Part shown: in pieces, positions 35,236 to 45,768 of the stretch
How positions within the stretch are numbered: the stretch's first letter is position 1
How the letters are laid out: each line of letters begins with the position of its first letter
Assembly (NCBI GenBank): GCA_019240525.1
Contig: JAFAYE010000001.1
Location: 469,300 to 533,299 of the forward strand
Length of the DNA stretch: 64,000 nt
Direction: 5' to 3'
DNA from: Candidatus Eremiobacterota bacterium
Lineage (GTDB): Bacteria > Vulcanimicrobiota > Vulcanimicrobiia > Vulcanimicrobiales > Vulcanimicrobiaceae
Program-made: the position numbers and the translations under genes
The notes under the pieces: model-generated
Database searches by the model: none
Told to the model about the DNA's origin: nothing
The model's input: the letters and a program-made list of their open reading frames with translations, nothing else

Positions 35236-37044
35236 TTAATGCGCGAGCGCCTGCGTTCCAACGGTCTGCAGATTGACGCCATTGGCCGTAAGAATGGTGC
35301 CTTCGACGCGCTGGAGCTCGACGAGAGCCTGATTGAGCTGCGTTTGTGCCTGCAACTCGCTGCCGCGCGCTTGTTCGAGTTGTACTTGGCGCTGCAAGAC
35401 TAAGAACGTCGTCGATTCGCCTTGATGGAATTTGCGCAGTTCGCTGGCATAGACCGCCTCGGCGGATTCGCGCGCTTGGCGAGTCGCGCTCAACTTCGAG
35501 AGCGCAGATTGATAGCTTTGCAGTGCATTGCGAGCCTCGGCGCCGATTCGTTCTTGCACGCCCTGCATCAAGATTCTCGCTTGCGAGGTTTCCTCGGCCG
35601 CGAGGCCTCGCAGTCCGCGCGCGACGTGCCCTTGCAGCGGATATCCGACGATCAACGCGAGATTGAACGTTGGGAAGTAGCCGGCCCACATATTGTGATA
35701 GGCCCAGGGCATGCTCCCCTGAGTATTGGGCGGCGGAGTGGGACACCGTGGTATGCCGACGCCTTGCTGGCAATAGCTCAGTAAAAAGAGCGGCACCGGT
35801 ACGGGTATTCCGGCAAAACCGTTGCTTTGGTATTGCGCCTGAACGTCGGCCTGCGGAAGCGCTTGATTCTTCGCATAGGCGACGTCGATCTCGGACGCTC
35901 GCCGTCGAGCTTCCGCTTGCGCGACCTCGGGACGACTCCGTTGCGCTTCAGCCACGATCGTTGCCAGATCGGCCGTCTGCGGAAGCTGTTGCACCGAGGT
36001 CGACGGCACTAAATTCGCCGCCCAGATCGGGTCACGAGCGTTCGAAGCGACCAACGTCTTGAGTTGATTCTGCAGCCGCGCGACCTCTTCGAGCGCCGAG
36101 AATACGCTGGTTTGGAAGTTTGCGACCTGACTCTCGGACTGTACCGCGTCGATGGGAGCCGCGGCCCCGCGCGCGGCCAGGCGAACGTTGCTCTGCTGTT
36201 GCCGAATCGCTTCCCTCAATGCTTCTTCTTGTATCGCGACGTTGCGCCAGGCGGTGACGAGGTCCCAATACGTGTTTTCCACCTGCGCGATGACGTTGGA
36301 AGTGTCGACGAGCGTCTGTGCCATACCGGCATCCGCATTGACGATGGCCAACTTCAATTGCCGCTTGGTCGCGTTCATTCCGAAGTTTTTGAGAAGCGGC
36401 TGGTTGACGGCCAGGTTTAAGGTTGCCAGATAGTACGGATTGAACGCGTCGAAGAGCGTGTTGTTGTACGTGCGGCTCTGCTCGATGCCGGCTTGAAAGG
36501 TGGTTCCGTTTTCGGTCTCACCGTTGAGGCCGTAGCCGAAGGCGGATTGGTGTTGAATGATGTTGCCCGGCCCCGTCGTGAAGACTGGACCAGGATAGAC
36601 CCCCACCTGGCCCGGACCGGCATCGATGAAATTGAGCGGTGGATTGACGGAGTAGTTCGACTGCGGCTGCAAGTGAAGCGCGACGTCGTAGGCGCCCTTC
36701 ACCTGCTCGATGTTATAATGCGCGATTCTGAAATTCGAAGCCGAGACGGCGAGGTTCGGATTCTTGATCAACGACATCGCAATGGCGTCTTGGAGCGAGA
36801 TCGCAACGAATCGCTCGGCGGTGACGCCGATGATTTGCGCGGGACTCGGCGCGGCTTGTGGCGCGCGATAGCCCGGAGCAACGCTCGGCACGGGCGCGAG
36901 CAAGAGCGTCGGAATCATCGTCGGCAAAGCAGCTCTGCTGGGCAGACGATCGTCGAGTTGCGCCGATGTCGGTTGCAGCGGGACGATGACCATTGCCAGC
37001 GCCGTTGCCGCGACGGCGGCCGAAAGCGCTCGATTTTGACCCAT
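35236..37044 (-). CDS. TolC-family outer-membrane efflux protein (first of three paralogues)
   Basis: A 602-residue outer-membrane factor with a signal peptide, the conserved PSVAPGYRAP extension and two OEP repeats. The SRTYNN, QPLLKNFGMNATKRQLKLA and AYWDLV-like TYWDLVTAWRNVAIQE blocks match the other two copies. It lies one base after the EmrB-type transporter gene, so it is the paralogue most directly linked to the pump. Several coupled outer-membrane factors in one operon suggest different exit ducts, altered specificity, or a mixed trimer. Confidence 0.9.
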   Translation of the reverse strand: MGQNRALSAAVAATALAMVIVPLQPTSAQLDDRLPSRAALPTMIPTLLLAPVPSVAPGYRAPQAAPSPAQIIGVTAERFVAISLQDAIAMSLIKNPNLAVSASNFRIAHYNIEQVKGAYDVALHLQPQSNYSVNPPLNFIDAGPGQVGVYPGPVFTTGPGNIIQHQSAFGYGLNGETENGTTFQAGIEQSRTYNNTLFDAFNPYYLATLNLAVNQPLLKNFGMNATKRQLKLAIVNADAGMAQTLVDTSNVIAQVENTYWDLVTAWRNVAIQEEALREAIRQQQSNVRLAARGAAAPIDAVQSESQVANFQTSVFSALEEVARLQNQLKTLVASNARDPIWAANLVPSTSVQQLPQTADLATIVAEAQRSRPEVAQAEARRRASEIDVAYAKNQALPQADVQAQYQSNGFAGIPVPVPLFLLSYCQQGVGIPRCPTPPPNTQGSMPWAYHNMWAGYFPTFNLALIVGYPLQGHVARGLRGLAAEETSQARILMQGVQERIGAEARNALQSYQSALSKLSATRQARESAEAVYASELRKFHQGESTTFLVLQRQVQLEQARGSELQAQTQLNQALVELQRVEGTILTANGVNLQTVGTQALAH

Positions 37045-37045
37045 C

Positions 37046-38584
37046 TTACTCCGCCAACGCCATGCCGATGCGCGGTTTGCGCAGCAGCAGCACCAGTGGC
37101 GCTAAACCGAGCGTGATGACCGCGACCCAGCGCGACGTGTCGGCGTAGGATTCAACCGCCGATTGCGACTCGACCAATGTGGCCAGACGTTGCATCGCCC
37201 CCGCGTTCTGCGTGCCGCCTTGCGCCAGGACGTACTGTTGCGTGGGCCCGTGTCCTAGCGTTTGACTGCTTGCGAGTTCGGTCTGATGAACGGTAAAGCC
37301 GCGCACCAAGAGCGTGATCAAGATCGCCGCCGCGACGCTGCCGCCAATCTGTCGCGAAAGATTAAAGAAGGCCGCCGTGGCCGGAACCTCTTTATCGGGC
37401 ACGCTCCCAATAACCGCCACCGAGAGCGGGACGAAGATTTGCGCAAGCCCGATTCCACTGAGAATCAAGGGAAAGATCAAGCTGTGGAAATCGGAGAGCG
37501 GCGTCGTAATGCTTCCGAGGACCCAGTTTGAAATCGCGAGCAACACGAAGCCGATCGCCGCTTGAAGCCGCGCATCGACCACGCCTCGCTGTACCAAGAT
37601 CGCGGTGAGCGGCGTGAAGAGCGCCACGGCGCCCGCACGAATCATCACGGTCGCGCCGGAGAGCGTTGCCGTAAAGCCGAGCGAATTAATGAGATATTGC
37701 GGAAGGATGATAATCGAGCCGTAAAGGCTGACGCCAAGCACCGCGCCCAAAACGCTACCGGCCGCGACCTGCCGCAGCTTCAAAACGCGCAAATCGACGA
37801 CCGGACTCGTCGAACGAAGCGTCCACCAGACGAACGACGCCAGACCCGCGATCGAAAAGAACGTGAACCAGCGAATCCGCAGGTCGTCGTACCAGTCGTA
37901 TTGCTGACCGTTCTCGAGCACGAACTGCATGGATCCCAAGCCGATGCACATCAAAATCAAGCCGATCCAATCGAGCCGGCGATACTGCGGCTTGGCAGGG
38001 TTGCGCAGAAAGTTCCAGATCAAAGTCGCAGCGATGATTCCAATGGGGATATTAATGAAGAAAATCCAGTGCCAGTTCCAGTGGTCGGTGATCCAGCCCC
38101 CGATCACCGGTCCCAGCGCCGGCCCCACGATCACACCCATCGCGAAGACGCCCTGGGCTTTGCCTTGCTCCTTGATCCCGTACGTGTCGCGCAGGATCGC
38201 CTGCGAGGTCGCGATGAGACCGCCACCCCCCAAGCCTTGAACGAGCCGCCAAAAGACCAACTGACCCAGACTATTGGAAAGCCCGCACATCAGCGACGCC
38301 GCCGTGAAGATCACGATTGACGTGAAGAAATATTGCCGGCGTCCGAACCGCGCAGCGAACCATGGATTGAGCGGAATGACGACAACGTTGGCGATGAGAT
38401 AGGCCGTGACGACCCAGGCTCCCAGATCGACGCCGACCCCGAAGTTACCTTGAATGTTTGGCAGCGAGACGTTCACGATCGTGACGTCGATGATCTCAAG
38501 CAGTGTCGCGGTGATCACCGCGACGCTCACAATCACCCGGCGCCAGCCGTGCTCGACGACTGTGCTTTCGTACCTGCCGAACAT
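37046..38584 (-). CDS. emrB: DHA2-family (EmrB/QacA) drug efflux MFS transporter
   Basis: A 512-residue inner-membrane transporter with about 14 predicted helices. It has the DHA2 hallmarks TIVNVSLPNIQGNFG in helix 1, the motif A region ARFGRRQYF, GGLIATSQAILRDTY, and the motif C segment VGPALGPVIGGWITDHWNWHWIFFIN. It uses the proton gradient to export hydrophobic compounds and works with the EmrA-type adaptor encoded upstream. The gap to the adaptor gene (36 bases) contains a dispersed repeat. Confidence 0.93.
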   Translation of the reverse strand: MFGRYESTVVEHGWRRVIVSVAVITATLLEIIDVTIVNVSLPNIQGNFGVGVDLGAWVVTAYLIANVVVIPLNPWFAARFGRRQYFFTSIVIFTAASLMCGLSNSLGQLVFWRLVQGLGGGGLIATSQAILRDTYGIKEQGKAQGVFAMGVIVGPALGPVIGGWITDHWNWHWIFFINIPIGIIAATLIWNFLRNPAKPQYRRLDWIGLILMCIGLGSMQFVLENGQQYDWYDDLRIRWFTFFSIAGLASFVWWTLRSTSPVVDLRVLKLRQVAAGSVLGAVLGVSLYGSIIILPQYLINSLGFTATLSGATVMIRAGAVALFTPLTAILVQRGVVDARLQAAIGFVLLAISNWVLGSITTPLSDFHSLIFPLILSGIGLAQIFVPLSVAVIGSVPDKEVPATAAFFNLSRQIGGSVAAAILITLLVRGFTVHQTELASSQTLGHGPTQQYVLAQGGTQNAGAMQRLATLVESQSAVESYADTSRWVAVITLGLAPLVLLLRKPRIGMALAE

Positions 38585-38620: not shown

Positions 38621-39889
38621 CTACTTCACGTTAACGTAGGTTTCGACGCTCATTCCGGGCCTCAACGGCAGGTCGCTGCGCTGATCGTCGACTTCGATTC
38701 GCACGGGTATGCGCTGAGTCACCTTCACGAAGTTGCCGCTTGCGTTTTGAGCCGGAACCAAAGCGTAGGTGTTCTCCGATGCGGGATTGATCGAAGCGAC
38801 GTGCCCGTGAAACGTCACGCCCTTATACGCATCCACGCGGATTTCGACGGATTGACCGACCCGCATCTTCCCCATCTGCGTCTCTTTATAGTTTGCGGTA
38901 ATGTAGACGTGGCGTGGAACGATCGTGAGCAACGTCATGCCTGCGCCGACGGTTTGTCCAACCTCGGCCGACTTTTGGCCGACGTAACCGTCGGTCGACG
39001 CGTAGATGTGCGTATAGTTGAGGCTCTGTTTCGCGAGATAGTATTGCGCCGCCGCGGCCTCGACTTGGCTGGGATCGTCGGCTTGCGCCAACTTGCCCTG
39101 TGCGGTCGTCAACGCTCCCGAGGCTTCCGAGACACCGGCTTGGGCGGCCGAAACGCGGGTCTGCGCCGCCGCGACGTTCGCCTGTGCAACCGTCACCTGG
39201 TCTTGCGCGCCCCGCAACTGAGCCGCGGCGCCCGCGGATTGCGCGCGCGCTGCGTCGAGCGATTGGGAGGCGACGTCGCCCGTGCTCACGAGCGAGCTCG
39301 CGCGATTGAGGTCGGCTTGGGCTTTATCGTAGGCTTGCTGGGCCGCCGGCACCTGCGCTTGCGCGGCGCGCAACTGCGCGTTGGCCTGTGCTACTTGATC
39401 TTGCGCTGCCGGCACTTGCGCCTGCACGTTGGCGATCGCGCCGCTCGCTTGAGCGATGCCGCCCTGACCCTGCTCGGTGTTGGCGCGCTGGTTGGCGGCC
39501 GCGAGATCGTACTGCGCTTGCGCCTGACGGAGCCTCGCGAGCTCGTCCTTGTTATCGAGAACAACCAAAAGCTGCCCGCGACGAACGGGCTGATTCGTGT
39601 CAACTAAGATCGCGTTGATACGCTCGGGAATCTTGCTGGTGACTGCCACTTCGTCGGCGGCGACGTGCGCGTCGTCGGTGCCTTCGTGTGAGAACATGAA
39701 GTTGAGCCACGGCAGACCCCAGATCACCGCGGCGGCGATAACGATCAGCACGCCGACGGCGAAGAAAATCGGACGCCGGCTCGATCGCGGTTCGGCGTCG
39801 TCGGGGCTCAGATCGGCGGCCGCGGCACTCCCCGCGCCGTTTCCTTGCGGAACCGCCGTTTTTTGCTGATCGATTTCTCGCGTATCCAT
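38621..39889 (-). CDS. emrA: EmrA/HlyD-type periplasmic adaptor protein
   Basis: A 422-residue membrane-fusion protein. Residues 1-35 are cytoplasmic and polar, a single transmembrane helix covers about 37-60, and the sequence then runs through TDDAHVAADEVAV (start of the beta-barrel/lipoyl region). A very Ala/Gln-rich coiled-coil hairpin covers about residues 110-255, followed by the second lipoyl half and the C-terminal beta-barrel (RVGQSVEIRVDAYKG, LRPGMSVETYVNVK). It connects EmrB to a TolC-type duct. Its ATG is directly next to the tetR stop codon. Confidence 0.93.
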   Translation of the reverse strand: MDTREIDQQKTAVPQGNGAGSAAAADLSPDDAEPRSSRRPIFFAVGVLIVIAAAVIWGLPWLNFMFSHEGTDDAHVAADEVAVTSKIPERINAILVDTNQPVRRGQLLVVLDNKDELARLRQAQAQYDLAAANQRANTEQGQGGIAQASGAIANVQAQVPAAQDQVAQANAQLRAAQAQVPAAQQAYDKAQADLNRASSLVSTGDVASQSLDAARAQSAGAAAQLRGAQDQVTVAQANVAAAQTRVSAAQAGVSEASGALTTAQGKLAQADDPSQVEAAAAQYYLAKQSLNYTHIYASTDGYVGQKSAEVGQTVGAGMTLLTIVPRHVYITANYKETQMGKMRVGQSVEIRVDAYKGVTFHGHVASINPASENTYALVPAQNASGNFVKVTQRIPVRIEVDDQRSDLPLRPGMSVETYVNVK

Positions 39890-40513
39890 TTAGCCTTTCC
39901 TTACCCCATTGAGAAAAACGTCGACGTAGAAGCGCAGCGCGACTTCGGAATCGCCACGGTGCAGCGGCGAATCCGGAAACTTTTTGCTTCCGAGCGCGTG
40001 CATAAAGATCAAACCCAAGAAGACCATGGCCAGCTTCGGCGCCTCGCCGCGAAGTTCGTCCGCGTCGATGCGACGCTGCATGAAGACCGTCATGATCGCG
40101 ACGATCGCCAGCTGCGGCCGCCAGGCGGTTTGAGCGAAGATGTCATTTTCGTACTCTTGCTCGACCAGCGACCATCGAATCATATCCTGCAGCGACTCGA
40201 AACGGGCGAGCATTAGGCGCGCGACCGTCAAAAGGTCGCCGGCGAGATCGCCCGTGAGCTGCCCGGCCACATCGGCGAGTTCCAGATAGCCGCAGAAATG
40301 TTGAGCGCACGCCACGAGCAGCGCTTCTTTTGTGCCGAAATGGCGGAAGAGCGTCGCTTCGTTCACGCCGGCGACCTCGGCGATCTCGCGCGTCGTCGCG
40401 CCGCGCTTGCCCTTTCGGCCGATGACGTCGCGCGTCGCCGTGAGGATCCGCTCGCGCGTCTCCTCAGGCGACGCGGATCGGCCGCTCTCGATCGGACGGC
40501 GCGTTTCGATCAC
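39890..40513 (-). CDS. TetR-family transcriptional regulator
   Basis: A 207-residue regulator with an N-terminal TetR helix-turn-helix (about residues 15-62: RERILTATRDVIGRKGKRGAT, then REIAEVAGVNEATLFRHFGTKEALL). The remaining all-helical domain binds an unknown ligand and dimerises. The GTG start overlaps the stop of the LolA-like gene (GTGA). As the second gene of the efflux operon it probably represses its own operon. Two palindromes around the predicted operon promoter at 41181-41244 are candidate binding sites. Ligand identity is unknown. Confidence 0.92.
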   Translation of the reverse strand: MIETRRPIESGRSASPEETRERILTATRDVIGRKGKRGATTREIAEVAGVNEATLFRHFGTKEALLVACAQHFCGYLELADVAGQLTGDLAGDLLTVARLMLARFESLQDMIRWSLVEQEYENDIFAQTAWRPQLAIVAIMTVFMQRRIDADELRGEAPKLAMVFLGLIFMHALGSKKFPDSPLHRGDSEVALRFYVDVFLNGVRKG

Positions 40514-41172
40514 GGCAGACTGTTCCCGGCACCGATTGCGACATTTGCTTCGTAGGTTCCGTAGGTCGCGTCGGCGACGGCGCGGACGTGTGGAATGTCA
40601 ATCGTCGCATGCTGCTGCGAGACGACCGAATAGTCGCCCTGCACGCGATACTGCTGCGACATCACGATCTTGCCGCCGCTCGTGTAGTACCATTCCATCT
40701 GCAGCAGCGCGTAGTCGGTGGGGTCGACATAAACCAGGGTATGGTCGAGGATGTCGCTGTGAATTTTCTTCGTCATCCGCAAGACGATGACGGCACGGCT
40801 CCCGAGCGCTGCCATTCCGCTGACCGAGATATTCTCGTCCTTTTCCCACGCGCGCGGATTGCCGACATCGTTGAAAAGCCGTCCGAAACCGCGCGCATAA
40901 CTGGGCATACGGTCGAAGGCGACGACATAAAAATCGGGCCGCTTGTAGTACGACGTGCCGTCGAGTTTCGGCGCGAAAAACGGGAAGCTGTACATGTGGA
41001 CGTCGACGTGAACGCGCGCGCGGAACGAACGCAAGCTCGGATTGCGATCGGCCATTCGGATGATGACCGTATGCGCGTCGAGGGGAGCCTCGGCGGCGGC
41101 ACCGGGTACCAGTCCGGATGCTGCGCTCAATACGGTTGCGGCGAGCAAATACGCAAAAAATTTTAATGGCAT
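40510..41172 (-). CDS. Secreted LolA/LppX-like envelope protein, first gene of the efflux operon
   Basis: A 220-residue protein with a signal peptide (about residues 1-28, ending AAAEA). The mature part resembles LolA-like outer-membrane lipoprotein-sorting or DUF-type proteins: MADRNPSLRSFRARVHVDVH, SYYKRPDFYVVAFDRMP, TLVYVDPTDYALLQMEWYYTSGG. These form a half-barrel that binds lipid in known members. The assignment is by pattern and is moderate. Its ATG at 41172 lies just after the palindromic operator region, and its stop overlaps tetR. This suggests that the pump may handle a lipid or membrane-active substrate. Confidence 0.6.
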   Translation of the reverse strand: MPLKFFAYLLAATVLSAASGLVPGAAAEAPLDAHTVIIRMADRNPSLRSFRARVHVDVHMYSFPFFAPKLDGTSYYKRPDFYVVAFDRMPSYARGFGRLFNDVGNPRAWEKDENISVSGMAALGSRAVIVLRMTKKIHSDILDHTLVYVDPTDYALLQMEWYYTSGGKIVMSQQYRVQGDYSVVSQQHATIDIPHVRAVADATYGTYEANVAIGAGNSLP

Positions 41173-41180
41173 CGTACTTT

Positions 41181-41200
41181 GTGCAAGTGGGTACTTGCAC
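41181..41200. promoter_or_regulatory. Palindromic operator candidate 1 (over the predicted transcription start)
   Basis: GTGCAAGTGGGTACTTGCAC has perfect 8-base arms around a 4-base centre. It lies 9 bases upstream of the first operon gene and covers the predicted start site near 41199. Its half-site matches that of operator candidate 2, 46 bases away centre to centre. Palindromes of this size are typical TetR-family targets, and a TetR gene is second in the operon. Confidence 0.65.
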
Positions 41201-41205
41201 GCACT

Positions 41206-41234
41206 AGTCTATCACCTGAATTTGGGCCGTGCAA
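41206..41234 (-). promoter_or_regulatory. Predicted promoter of the LolA-like/tetR/efflux operon
   Basis: On the minus strand TTGCAC (41234-41229) and TAGACT (41211-41206) are separated by exactly 17 bases. The -10 box matches consensus at four of six positions, the -35 box at three. The -35 box is one arm of operator candidate 2, and the start site predicted at about 41199 falls in operator candidate 1. The 5' leader would be about 27 bases and has no clear Shine-Dalgarno. Confidence 0.5.
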
Positions 41235-41244
41235 GTGCTTGCAC
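41229..41244. promoter_or_regulatory. Palindromic operator candidate 2 (over the predicted -35 box)
   Basis: GTGCAAGTGCTTGCAC has perfect 7-base arms around TG. It repeats the half-site of operator candidate 1, and both copies are followed by GCAC on the plus strand. The centre is shorter than in candidate 1 (2 versus 4 bases), so one of the two may be the stronger site. Confidence 0.6.
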
Positions 41245-41273
41245 GCACCTACTTGCTCGCCCCGGCGCGGGCG

Positions 41274-41600
41274 TCAGCTCGAAGAATGCCGGTGGTGATG
41301 ATGCCGGAAGGGGTGGCGCGCACCATGGTACCCCTCCGCCTGCGCTTGCGAGAGGCACATATACTGGCCGCGCTTCGTCTTCCCGTACAGCCGGTCACCC
41401 GGCAAGAGGTAGACCTTGGCACCTTCGATCGCCCAAACCGGGGATTCGCCGTTGCAGCTCGGCGGCGAAGCGGCCACCGGCGCGCCGCTCAGCGCGGCGG
41501 CGGTCTGCAGTGGCGCGGAGTTGCTCGGCTTGACGTTACTTCGGCACGAAGTGAGCGCGGCTAAAGCGACTGCGGCCAGGACGATCGTCGTCTTGCTCAT
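41274..41600 (-). CDS. Small lipoprotein with a sunset-type domain and His-rich tail
   Basis: A 108-residue protein with a lipoprotein signal peptide (lipobox LTSC, Cys19). After a low-complexity linker it has a short domain with VYLLPGDRLYGKTKRGQYM and AQAEGYH. This resembles the small repeat (often called sunset domain) with a VYHxPG-xxYGxTKxGxYM pattern found in many bacterial secreted proteins. The C terminus is histidine-rich (FRHHHHRHSSS), which could bind metal. Two Cys in the domain may form a disulfide. It lies upstream of the efflux operator region on the same strand; function is unknown. Confidence 0.65.
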   Translation of the reverse strand: MSKTTIVLAAVALAALTSCRSNVKPSNSAPLQTAAALSGAPVAASPPSCNGESPVWAIEGAKVYLLPGDRLYGKTKRGQYMCLSQAQAEGYHGARHPFRHHHHRHSSS

Positions 41601-41612
41601 AGGCGACCGCTT

Positions 41613-42914
41613 TCACGGGGGCTGCGCGGAAACCCGCTTCGCGATTCGGGCGGTCGCATCGCGAGCCCGGCGCGCAAGCGGCGAGGCTTCGCCGACGTAC
41701 ACCCGGCGCCCACCCACGAACGTGGCCTGTACCCACGCATCGCTGCCGCGATAGACGACTGAGTTGATCGCCGGAGACCACGGGTCGATCGCCGACGCAT
41801 CGAGCACGGCGTAATCTGCCGGCATTTTGGCCACGAGGTCTCCGGTTCCAATACGCAACGCGCGCGCGCCTTGCGCCGTTGCGAGCGAGAACGCCGTGGG
41901 CGCGCCCAAGGCCGCTGCGTCCAGGTACAAGATCTTCTGCAGGAGCGCTGCAGCGCGCATCTCCTCGATCAGCGACGGACGAACGTCGGCGTCGGTGCCC
42001 AGACCCATCGTGACTCCCAGCGATTGCAGCTTGGTCACGTTGCAAATGCCGTCACCCAAATAAAGGTTCGTCATTGGATTATGAATGACGCGGGCGCGGC
42101 GGTCGGCCAGCATCGTCGCGTCGTCGTCGCTGATGTAAATGGCGTGAATTGCGACCGTCCGTTCGTCGAGCGCGCCGAGCCGGTCGAGCAACGCGATTGG
42201 AGTGGCGCCAAATCGCTCCAGCGTCTCCTCGCCTTCGTAGCGAGCCTCGGCGACGTGCACGTGCAGCATGCAATCGTGCTCTCGCGCGAAGGCCGCGGAC
42301 GCACGAATCATCTCCGGCGATGCGGCGTGCAACGAGTGCGGCGCGACGCAGACGTTCGCTTCGGGATAGCGTTTCATCAACTCGCGCGTTCGAGCAGCGG
42401 CGGTTTCGGCGTCCTCGCGGAACTCGGGCGGGGCATATGCGGCGTCCATCCATGTGCGCGCGAGAATGAGCCGGATGCCTGCGTCGCGCGCGGCGTTGAT
42501 TGCCGCCTCGGCAGACTCGTTTCCCGCACCGTTGAGGTAAAAAAACTCGGCAACCGTCGTGATCCCGGCGGCGAGCATCTCCGAGAACGCGGCCGCGAAC
42601 GTCCAGTAGACGTCGTCGGGCGTCAGCGCGGGCACAACGCGATAGAGTGCGTCGCGGCGCCATCGTTCAAACGGCCAGTCGTCGGCCCAGCCGCGCAGCA
42701 GAATCTGGTACGCATGGCTATGTCCGTTGATAAATCCGGGCACGATGAGACGATCGGCGGGAAACGAGCGCGCCTCGAGGTTGCGCCCGCTCGCGCGAAG
42801 TTCGAGAAAATCGCCGGCTTCCGCGATGATGCCGTCGCTCACGATGAACGCATAATCCTCGCGTAGCTGCCCCGAAACGATCGCTCGCGCGCAGCGGACG
42901 AGCTCGTTTACCAC
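41613..42914 (-). CDS. Amidohydrolase, candidate formimidoylglutamate deiminase (HutF-like)
   Basis: A 433-residue amidohydrolase-superfamily enzyme with a mononuclear metal site: His65 and His67 (GHSHAYQ), His220 in LHVHVAE with Glu223, His257 (AIHAIY) and Asp308 (GLGTDAD). The WRRDALYRVVPALTP and EMLAAGITTVAEFFY segments and CVAPHSLHAASPE recall HutF, which converts formimidoylglutamate to formylglutamate and ammonia. GTG overlaps the hutI stop by seven bases, so it is the third gene of a hutU-hutI operon, which supports the HutF role. Other deaminases of the ATZ/TRZ or MTA/SAH type remain possible. Confidence 0.6.
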   Translation of the reverse strand: MVNELVRCARAIVSGQLREDYAFIVSDGIIAEAGDFLELRASGRNLEARSFPADRLIVPGFINGHSHAYQILLRGWADDWPFERWRRDALYRVVPALTPDDVYWTFAAAFSEMLAAGITTVAEFFYLNGAGNESAEAAINAARDAGIRLILARTWMDAAYAPPEFREDAETAAARTRELMKRYPEANVCVAPHSLHAASPEMIRASAAFAREHDCMLHVHVAEARYEGEETLERFGATPIALLDRLGALDERTVAIHAIYISDDDATMLADRRARVIHNPMTNLYLGDGICNVTKLQSLGVTMGLGTDADVRPSLIEEMRAAALLQKILYLDAAALGAPTAFSLATAQGARALRIGTGDLVAKMPADYAVLDASAIDPWSPAINSVVYRGSDAWVQATFVGGRRVYVGEASPLARRARDATARIAKRVSAQPP

Positions 42915-44122
42915 GCCGCCTGCACGCCATTCTTTACGACGAGCCGTGCCAAGTTGCCGCCGAACTGCCAGCCAAATTCGTCGGGCGACTCGATCTGCAG
43001 CGCCACGAAATCCGCGGGAGCACCAGCTCGAATTCGGCCGGCATCAACGCGCAGCGAGTGAGCCGCGGCCCGCGTGACGCCATAGAGTGCCTCGGCGGCC
43101 GAGAGTCCGAAGAGCTTGCGCCCAAAGAACGCCACGGTTTGCAGATTGAAGCACGGCGAAGTCCCCGGATTGTAATCGCTTCCCAACGCCACCATTCCGC
43201 CAGCCTCGAGCAGCGCACGCACCGGCGCGCGCTGCTCCAAATCGAGATAGGCAATCGTGGCCGGGCACGCAACGGTAACGATGCCATGTTCGGCGATGGC
43301 CGCAACGTCGTATTTTCGGATGCAATTGCAGTGGTCGACCGCGTCGACGCCGAGTTGCACGGCCATCTCGGCCGCACCGCCGTACGACATCTCGTCGCAG
43401 TGGACGCGCAGGCGCATGCCCCATAGCCGTGCTGCATCGAGATAGCGGCGCGTTTGCTCGGGCGAAAAGTACCCCGGCTCGCAAAACGCGTCGGCATAAA
43501 CGGCACCGTGTGAAACGGCCGCGGGAATCACCTGATCGATGAGATAGTCGACGAAAGCTTCTTCGTGCACGAACTCGGGCGGCAAAGCATGGGCACCCAG
43601 AAAGGTCGCGACCAGATTGGGCACGTCGGGGTCGCTTTTGTGCTCCGCAATCAGGTCGAGCAATGCGGATTCTCCGGGCTTGTGCAGCGCATAGCCGGTT
43701 TTTGTTTCTAATGTCGTTGTGCCGTGGGCGAGAATGGTTCGCAGCCGCGCGCGAATCGTTCGGTCATAGAAGGCCGCCGGGTCGAGAAGCGCCTCGCGCG
43801 TTCGCTCGACCGTGTACGACATGCCCAGGCGCGGGGGTTCGCCGCGCTGCCTGGCGACAAAATCCGGTTCGCGATCGCCGGCAAAGAGCGGATGCGCGTG
43901 CGCGTCGACAAAGCCGGGGAAGATTACGCAATCGCCCAGGTCGAGGTCTGCTTTTTGCAATGCGGTTCCAACCGGCTGCGCGTAACAGGAGATAAATTTT
44001 CCTGCTTCGATTTCAAGAACCGCATCGTCGATGCGCCCGAGCTTCTCGAAGTCAATCCCGCATTGCGGTAAATCGGTATCGCAGGTAACGATCGTCTTTG
44101 CGCGGACGATCAGAGGCGCCAA
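42908..44122 (-). CDS. hutI: Imidazolonepropionase
   Basis: HutI hydrolyses imidazolone-5-propionate to formimidoylglutamate, the third step of histidine degradation. The 404-residue amidohydrolase has [57 protein letters not shown] and [12 protein letters not shown], all typical of HutI. I place the start at TTG 44122, inside the end of hutU: AAAGGG (44134-44129) stands six bases upstream of it and no ATG or GTG fits. Longer in-frame sequence upstream is hutU read in another frame. Confidence 0.92.
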
Positions 44123-45768
44123 TCGATACCCTTTGCGTCGGCGGTTTCGATTGCAATTTCGTAGCCCGCGTCGGCGTGACGCACGACGCCGAGGCCCGGG
44201 TCGGTGGTCAGCACGCAAGCGAGCCGTTCGCGCGCGTCGTCGCTGCCGTCGGCGACGACCACCATTCCGGCATGCAAGCTATAGCCGATCCCTACGCCAC
44301 CCCCATGATGGAAACTCACCCAATGCGCCCCGGCCGCAGTGTTCAGCAGCGCGTTCAGGATTGGCCAATCGGCGATCGCGTCGCTTCCGTCGCGCATCGC
44401 CTCGGTTTCGCGATAGGGCGATGCGACGCTCCCGGTATCGAGATGATCGCGACCGATGACGACCGGCGCGCTGACGGCCCCGCTTCGCACGAGATCGTTG
44501 AAAGCGAGGCCCGCTTTTGCGCGGTCGCCGTAGCCGAGCCAACAGATGCGCGCGGGCAACCCCTGAAACGCGATACGCTCGCGCGCGAGACGAATCCAAC
44601 GCGCGAGGGATTCATTGTCGGGGAAGAGCTCGAGCAACTTCTCGTCGCAGCGAGCGATGTCGTTCGGATCGCCCGAGAGGGCGGCGAAGCGGAACGGGCC
44701 CGAGCCGCGACAGAAAAGCGGGCGAATGAAAGCCGGGACGAATCCGGGAAAGTCGAAGGCGCGGGCGAAGCCGGCGCGTTGCGCTTGCGCCCGGATGTTG
44801 TTGCCGTAGTCGAAAACGACCGATCCAGCGTCGAGGAATCGAACCATCGCCTCGACGTGCGCGCCGCAACTCGCCAATGCGCGTCGCTCGTACTCCTTCG
44901 CGTCCTGCGCGCGCAGCTCGGCTGCTTCGGTCAGCGAAAGACCGGCGGGCACGTAACCGTTGAGCAAGTCGTGCGCCGAGGTTTGATCGGTGACGGCGTC
45001 CGGACGAAAGCCATCCGCGTGCAGCTCGATAAACTCGGTTGCCGCATTTGCTTCGTAGCCGATGGAGAGGGCTCGCCCCTCGCGCCGCGCGCGCTCGGCC
45101 TCGTGCAGCGCTTCGTTTCGCGAATTAACGACGACGTCCAGATACCCTAGCTCGCGCCGCCGATCCAAACGAGCGCGATCGACGTCGACAATCACGCAAA
45201 TGCCGCCGTTCATCGTCACCGCCAGGGGCTGTGCGCCACCCATCCCGCCAACTCCGGCAGTCAAGGTAACCCGGCCGGCGAGCGTTCCGCCGAAATGTTT
45301 GCGCGCGAGCTCGGCAAAGGTCTCGTAAGTTCCCTGAACGATCCCCTGGGTTCCGATGTAGATCCACGACCCTGCGGTCATTTGTCCGTACATCGTGAGT
45401 CCTTGCGCCTCGAGCTCGCGGAAGGTGCTCCAGTCGGCCCACTTCGGCACCAGATTCGCGTTGGCGATGAGCACCCGCGGGGCGCGGACGTGCGTGCGGA
45501 AGACCCCGACGGGTTTGCCGCTCTGCACGAGCAGCGTTTCGTCGCTCTTCAAGCGCCGCAGGGTAGAGACGATCGCATCGAACGCTTCCCAGGATCGCGC
45601 TGCTCGCCCGTTACCGCCGTAGACGACCAACTCGTCGGGACGTTCGGCAACCTCGGGATCGAGGTTGTTCATCAACATTCGCAGCGCCGCTTCTTGTGGC
45701 CACCCCAGGCACGACATCGCGGCACCGCGCGGTGCTCGCACGCGGCGCGCGCCCGCCGTTATGCTCAT
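44110..45768 (-). CDS. hutU: Urocanate hydratase
   Basis: HutU adds water to urocanate to form imidazolone propionate with tightly bound NAD. The 552-residue protein, started at ATG 45768, begins with the family pattern [32 protein letters not shown]. It has the NAD site [24 protein letters not shown], the active-site Cys in [18 protein letters not shown] near residue 400, and [11 protein letters not shown]. It is the first gene of hutU-hutI-hutF-like and is divergent from the TonB-receptor-like gene, with only 57 bases for both promoters. Confidence 0.95.

Follow-up and report, generated by a model that had tools for sequence, protein, structure and literature searches.

Twin predicted operators around the promoter of a TetR-regulated efflux operon conserved in a family of Eremiobacterota

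Results

Two sites at the promoter of a minus-strand efflux operon very probably serve as twin operators, through which the TetR-family regulator encoded within the operon would repress pump and repressor genes together. This dual-operator autorepression is predicted from sequence comparison of the window, the whole 64,000-nucleotide stretch of DNA that was analysed, with related genomes. A sequence-only reading of the same DNA had described a first palindrome, GTGCAAGTGGGTACTTGCAC at 41181–41200, and a second, GTGCAAGTGCTTGCAC at 41229–41244, and both are present in the window sequence as described. The pair is located between the ATG of a LolA-like gene (41172, minus strand) and a small upstream gene at 41274–41600. 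Alignment of 76 related loci reveals that the second palindrome is a distal site at 41230–41247 taken out of register. In the conserved register, the predicted proximal operator O1 (41182–41199, minus strand) reads TGCAAGT-ACCC-ACTTGCA and spans approximately +1 to +18 from a predicted start at ~41199, an assignment based on conservation in the family. The predicted distal operator O2 (41230–41247, minus strand) reads TGCGTGC-AAGC-ACTTGCA and spans approximately −48 to −31, such that most of the −35 box falls within its right half.

This register alters two features of the original description. The separation of 46 bp given for two copies of the same half-site holds for the centres of the apparent palindromes, but becomes 48 bp between the centres of the conserved sites. 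The proposed difference in centre length (4 versus 2) is refuted by the 76-locus alignment, since the 7+4+7 geometry is common to the two sites, and an affinity difference arising from centre length is therefore without basis. An affinity difference between the sites is possible because their left half-sites differ, TGCGTGC in the distal and TGCAAGT in the proximal site. The compact palindrome GTGCAAGCACTTGCAC arises because the distal site of the window has CAAGC at its centre; it is common to several close relatives but not to others with a nearly identical distal left half, which read TGCGTGTAAGTACTTGCA. Across the 76 loci the distal site takes the form TGC(AA or GT)GY-NNNN-RCTTGCA, with a near-invariant right half ACTTGCA and a left half of either TGCAAGY or TGCGTGY. 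The latter is a genuine alternative half-site, since its inverted copy (ACACGCA) occurs in the proximal right half in genus g37. The inner flanks at 41200–41203 and 41226–41229 are also conserved in the family, reading TGCG/TGCA before the proximal site and being partly mirrored after the distal one, and the outer flanks are not conserved. These inner flanks may represent extra TetR contacts or a promoter discriminator.

How readily would such a pair appear by chance? In the window, perfect inverted repeats whose arms measure 7 or more are about as common as expected by chance (70 versus 65 under a first-order Markov model). A non-overlapping pair of palindromes that have a common half-site and lie at most 100 bp apart is found in the window only here, and such a pair arose in 2 of 300 first-order Markov simulations. 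Moreover, the degenerate site pattern is matched without mismatch at these two places only in the 2.8-Mb genome, and a genome search for further copies of the half-site, which had been suggested from the sequence alone, returned no other copy of either site in those 2.8 Mb. A wider regulon within this genome was rejected for this reason. Chance is ruled out as an explanation because the sites are conserved across genomes.

A TetR search of the 99 genomes of the window's taxonomic family gave a match in 95, and the DNA upstream of tetR was inspected at 94 loci, whose TetRs are 34–100% identical to the window protein. At least one site TGCAAGTNNNNACTTGCA with at most two mismatches lies upstream of tetR at 91 of the 94 loci, where ~0.006 per locus would be expected by chance; of the three exceptions, G002 lies at the edge of a contig, and the sites of G077 and G078 have diverged slightly further. 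With relaxed scoring both sites are recovered at 76 of the 94 loci, and their centres are spaced by 47 bp in 42 and by 48 bp in 21 (63 of the 76). Most columns within the sites carry 1–2 bits, a conservation that is partly by construction since the sites were picked by motif score, but that selection does not account for the place before the operon, the peak in spacing or the −10 element. DNA upstream of the pair and most of the spacer carry only ~0.0–0.3 bit (0.0–0.2 in the upstream flank of the distal site), the informative exceptions in the spacer being a TGnTAnnnT block and a few bases adjoining each site.

The pair is not obligatory, since only one clear site remains in genus g32 and in parts of g35. 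One alternative hypothesis is that the proximal site over +1 is the sole working TetR operator and that the distal site is mainly a −35 region whose left half is weakly used. The greater constraint on the distal right half ACTTGCA than on the left, as for a −35 box, agrees with this hypothesis, as does the single clear palindrome in genus g32, in genome G003 and in a sister family (f2). However, several genera carry a full 18-bp copy at the distal position (for example TGCAAGTGGGTACTTGCA in g6, g31 and G048), the distal left half is restricted to TGCAAGY or TGCGTGY even though it lies outside the promoter, and in g35 it is the distal site that survives and the proximal site that has decayed. 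We therefore regard a single working operator as improbable and favor two.

The promoter proposed from the sequence alone, TTGCAC-N17-TAGACT on the minus strand whose −35 box falls within the distal site and whose start falls within the proximal one, gains support from the window sequence and from conserved −35/−10 spacing. The −35 element TTGCAC (41229–41234, minus strand) overlaps the distal operator and is separated from the −10 hexamer by 17 bp at 61 of the 76 loci and by 18 bp at the other 15; correspondingly, a TAnnnT begins 18 (61 loci) or 19 (15 loci) bases after the distal site at all 76. An extended −10 element, TGA-TAGACT (41206–41214, minus strand; hexamer 41211–41206), is conserved at these loci, with 1.1–1.3 bits at the T, A and last T of TAnnnT and 0.7 at the G of TGn, compared with 0.02–0.3 bit for most neighbours. 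The position of TGA-TAGACT places the predicted start at ~41199, where the proximal site begins. G003 and the sister family lack the distal site and carry a plain TTGACC or TTGACA as the −35 element. On this evidence the predicted −35 element, TTGCAY, is located where the distal site ends, and together with a 17- or 18-bp spacer and an extended −10 it makes up a normal promoter of the sigma-70 type. Because TTGCAC and TAGACT match the consensus weakly, a simple scan for promoters missed this one.

The layout of promoter and sites also bears on whether the repeats act as an RNA-level element, such as a terminator or attenuator hairpin, or are a mobile repeat. Perfect inverted repeats could fold as hairpins, but the predicted start is downstream of the distal site, a spacing conserved at 47/48 bp is in keeping with proteins binding around a promoter, the sites have no T-run, and they occupy one locus only in the genome. 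A terminator or attenuator was rejected, none being called at the sites, and an RNA element or mobile repeat is hardly credible here.

The candidate binder of both operators is a 207-aa TetR-family regulator (39890–40513, minus strand) with an N-terminal helix-turn-helix (PF00440, E = 1.6e-14; 53.8 bits against a cut-off of 24). Its AlphaFold model (pLDDT 84.6) has the normal all-helical two-domain TetR fold, and the best PDB matches are TetR-family proteins. The conserved pair at the promoter constitutes a palindromic operator candidate near the regulator's own gene. The recognition helix GVNEATLFRHFG is conserved in the 94 orthologues: all 94 TetRs have V50, N51, E52, T54, F56, R57 and F59 in the recognition region despite the wide range of overall identity, and these residues are likewise invariant in an alignment of 55 TetRs that includes the sister family. 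At the orthologous tetR-efflux locus of the sister family, a consensus TTGACA is closely followed by one palindrome with half-sites TGTAAG. In this family (L243–L246, upstream of tetR) the half-site changes from TGCAAG to TGTAAG together with a change of residue 53 from A to V, which may mark a switch in specificity as judged from the aligned sequences. In genus g11 residue 53 is T, and the right half of the proximal site begins with G. Covariation between half-site and recognition helix was suggestive and was set aside as evidence, since each case involves a single clade.

Is this TetR the protein that the sites serve? Exact sites occur in 47 of the 149 genomes of the phylum, all 47 being among the 99 genomes of the window's family; the 50 genomes of other families in the phylum contain no exact site, and a reversed pattern used as a control gave one match in the 149 genomes. 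Every exact site in the 47 genomes is on the tetR contig and within ~1.2 kb of the tetR match, the places having been compared by eye. The sites are also kept while the genes between them and tetR vary, this interval holding a STAS-domain gene and a LolA-like gene, a STAS–LolA fusion, a LolA-like gene alone, or none (G004 and G045). Because the sites are tied to TetR by linkage only, one could propose that a different, unlinked regulator binds them and that TetR acts elsewhere. This is very unlikely given that the exact sites of all 47 genomes lie at the tetR locus, that the TetR recognition helix is nearly invariant in the same genomes, and that a second tetR copy in one genome (G040, contig C118) carries its own site pair. 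Negative autoregulation by the operon's TetR, as first suggested from the sequence alone, is thus supported by the exclusive location of exact sites at the tetR locus, by the almost invariant recognition helix and by the persistence of the sites through changes in the intervening genes.

The minus-strand genes of the operon are closely packed, in the order LolA-like, tetR (the second gene), emrA-like, emrB-like and tolC-like. The first encodes a secreted LolA-fold protein of 220 aa (40510–41172) with a signal peptide-like N-terminus; sequence profiles gave no Pfam or NCBIfam match for it, and its AlphaFold model matches DUF1329, LolA, LprG and RseB folds (Foldseek E = 1.8e-08 to LolA3 and DUF1329). 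Downstream of tetR lie an EmrA/HlyD-type periplasmic adaptor (38621–39889; HlyD_D23, E = 3.5e-17), an EmrB-type DHA2 MFS permease (37046–38584; TIGR00711, 383 bits against a cut-off of 230) and a TolC-type outer membrane efflux protein (35236–37044; PF02321, E = 1.9e-30). The operon thus has the EmrB permease and outer-membrane channel of an EmrAB-type tripartite system, and its adaptor matches TIGR00998 with E = 3.5e-66 and 223 bits, below the curated cut-off of 391. The profile scores indicate that this adaptor is a relative of EmrA, not EmrA proper. Immediately upstream, on the strand of the operon, the window carries genes resembling hutF and hutI of histidine degradation (41613–44218), and many relatives retain them close to the operon; for hutF this extends to the sister family.

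The operators are followed in most family members by a gene for a STAS-domain protein of ~95–130 aa (PF01740/PF13466) as the first gene, examples being at L224 (5786–6154, minus strand), L225 (2327–2722, plus strand) and L231 (5804–6166, minus strand). The window has no STAS gene between the operators and 41172. Most of its genus likewise lacks this gene, and for this reason the operator abuts the LolA-like gene. At five loci (L192, L204, L187, L198 and L211) the first ORF after the operators, ~320–350 aa in length, joins STAS and LolA-like parts through a hydrophobic segment, so that the putative carrier may be tied to a STAS domain by a transmembrane segment. These fusion ORFs suggest a membrane protein with a cytoplasmic STAS domain and a periplasmic LolA-fold domain associated with the EmrAB-type pump.

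Discussion

A fundamental question is how two operators would act on one promoter. One TetR dimer on the distal site (41230–41247) would cover the −35 box and a second on the proximal site (41182–41199) would cover +1 to +18, such that a dimer on either site would block RNA polymerase and occupation of both would give tight autorepression. The single promoter TTGCAC-N17-TAGACT would drive the LolA-like gene, tetR, emrA, emrB and the outer-membrane channel gene. A ligand, probably a pump substrate, would then bind TetR and cause it to leave the DNA, and pump and repressor would be made together. We infer TetR binding to both sites, repression by that binding and its relief by ligand, with release by the pump substrate proposed by analogy with other efflux TetRs such as MtrR. 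Centres 47–48 bp apart correspond to ~4.5 turns at 10.5 bp per turn, and the dimers would therefore sit roughly on opposite faces of the helix without needing to contact each other. Occlusion is a simpler account than looping. The mechanism of the switch is of the ordinary, textbook kind. The STAS gene that precedes the pump in relatives, sometimes fused to the LolA-like gene, is more unusual than the operator switch.

What the pump carries is a more speculative matter. LprG is described as acting with the MFS exporter Rv1410 in mycobacterial triacylglyceride transport (PMC10576003), and the LolA-type fold modelled for the first gene, together with its match to LprG, suggests an amphiphile or lipid substrate. 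By this analogy, a LolA-fold carrier and an EmrAB-channel pump might operate like LprG–Rv1410, with the site pair controlling export of envelope lipids or amphiphiles rather than a drug pump and with TetR sensing a lipid, a proposal that we consider tentative and rather doubtful. If it is true, the twin operators would govern an as yet undescribed system for lipid export in Eremiobacterota.

The host is an uncultured soil bacterium of Eremiobacterota, and a literature search on TetR in this phylum found no operator study among the papers that it listed. The present analysis provides a precise operator candidate, TGCAAGT-N4-ACTTGCA, with twin sites spaced by ~47 bp around a conservation-defined promoter, in an almost uncultured phylum. 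It also shows by conservation a −35/−10 pattern that is used in Eremiobacterota, and the TetR/operator pair could serve as a reporter.

Several known systems share parts of this arrangement. In Tn10, tetO1 and tetO2 cover one promoter region, and TetR represses the divergent genes for pump and repressor. The present pair similarly places two operators over one promoter region, but transcription runs in one direction only. The motif of the mycobacterial regulator KstR2 has a CAAG-nn-CTTG core, which resembles the compact reading of the second palindrome; this resemblance is a lead only and is probably accidental, because the register of the family is 7+4+7. MtrR of Neisseria gonorrhoeae, a TetR-family protein, represses mtrCDE efflux through an 18-bp operator, MCRTRCRN4YGYAYGK (PMC8053128). 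The likeness to MtrR consists of a TetR-family efflux repressor and an operator of two 7-bp half-sites around a non-conserved 4-bp centre (PMC8053128), whereas the half-site letters here are TGCAAGT, the regulator gene is inside the efflux operon and two operators lie 48 bp apart. The MtrR consensus was rejected as a description of these sites, since TGCAAGTACCCACTTGCA fails at its first and further positions and the 7+4+7 geometry alone agrees. In Vibrio cholerae, vceR lies upstream of the pump genes, in contrast to tetR as second gene here, and in a comparison that leaves operator letters aside VceR of vceCAB resembles the present TetR as an autoregulator beside an EmrAB-like MFS pump operon with an outer-membrane channel (PMC4344678).
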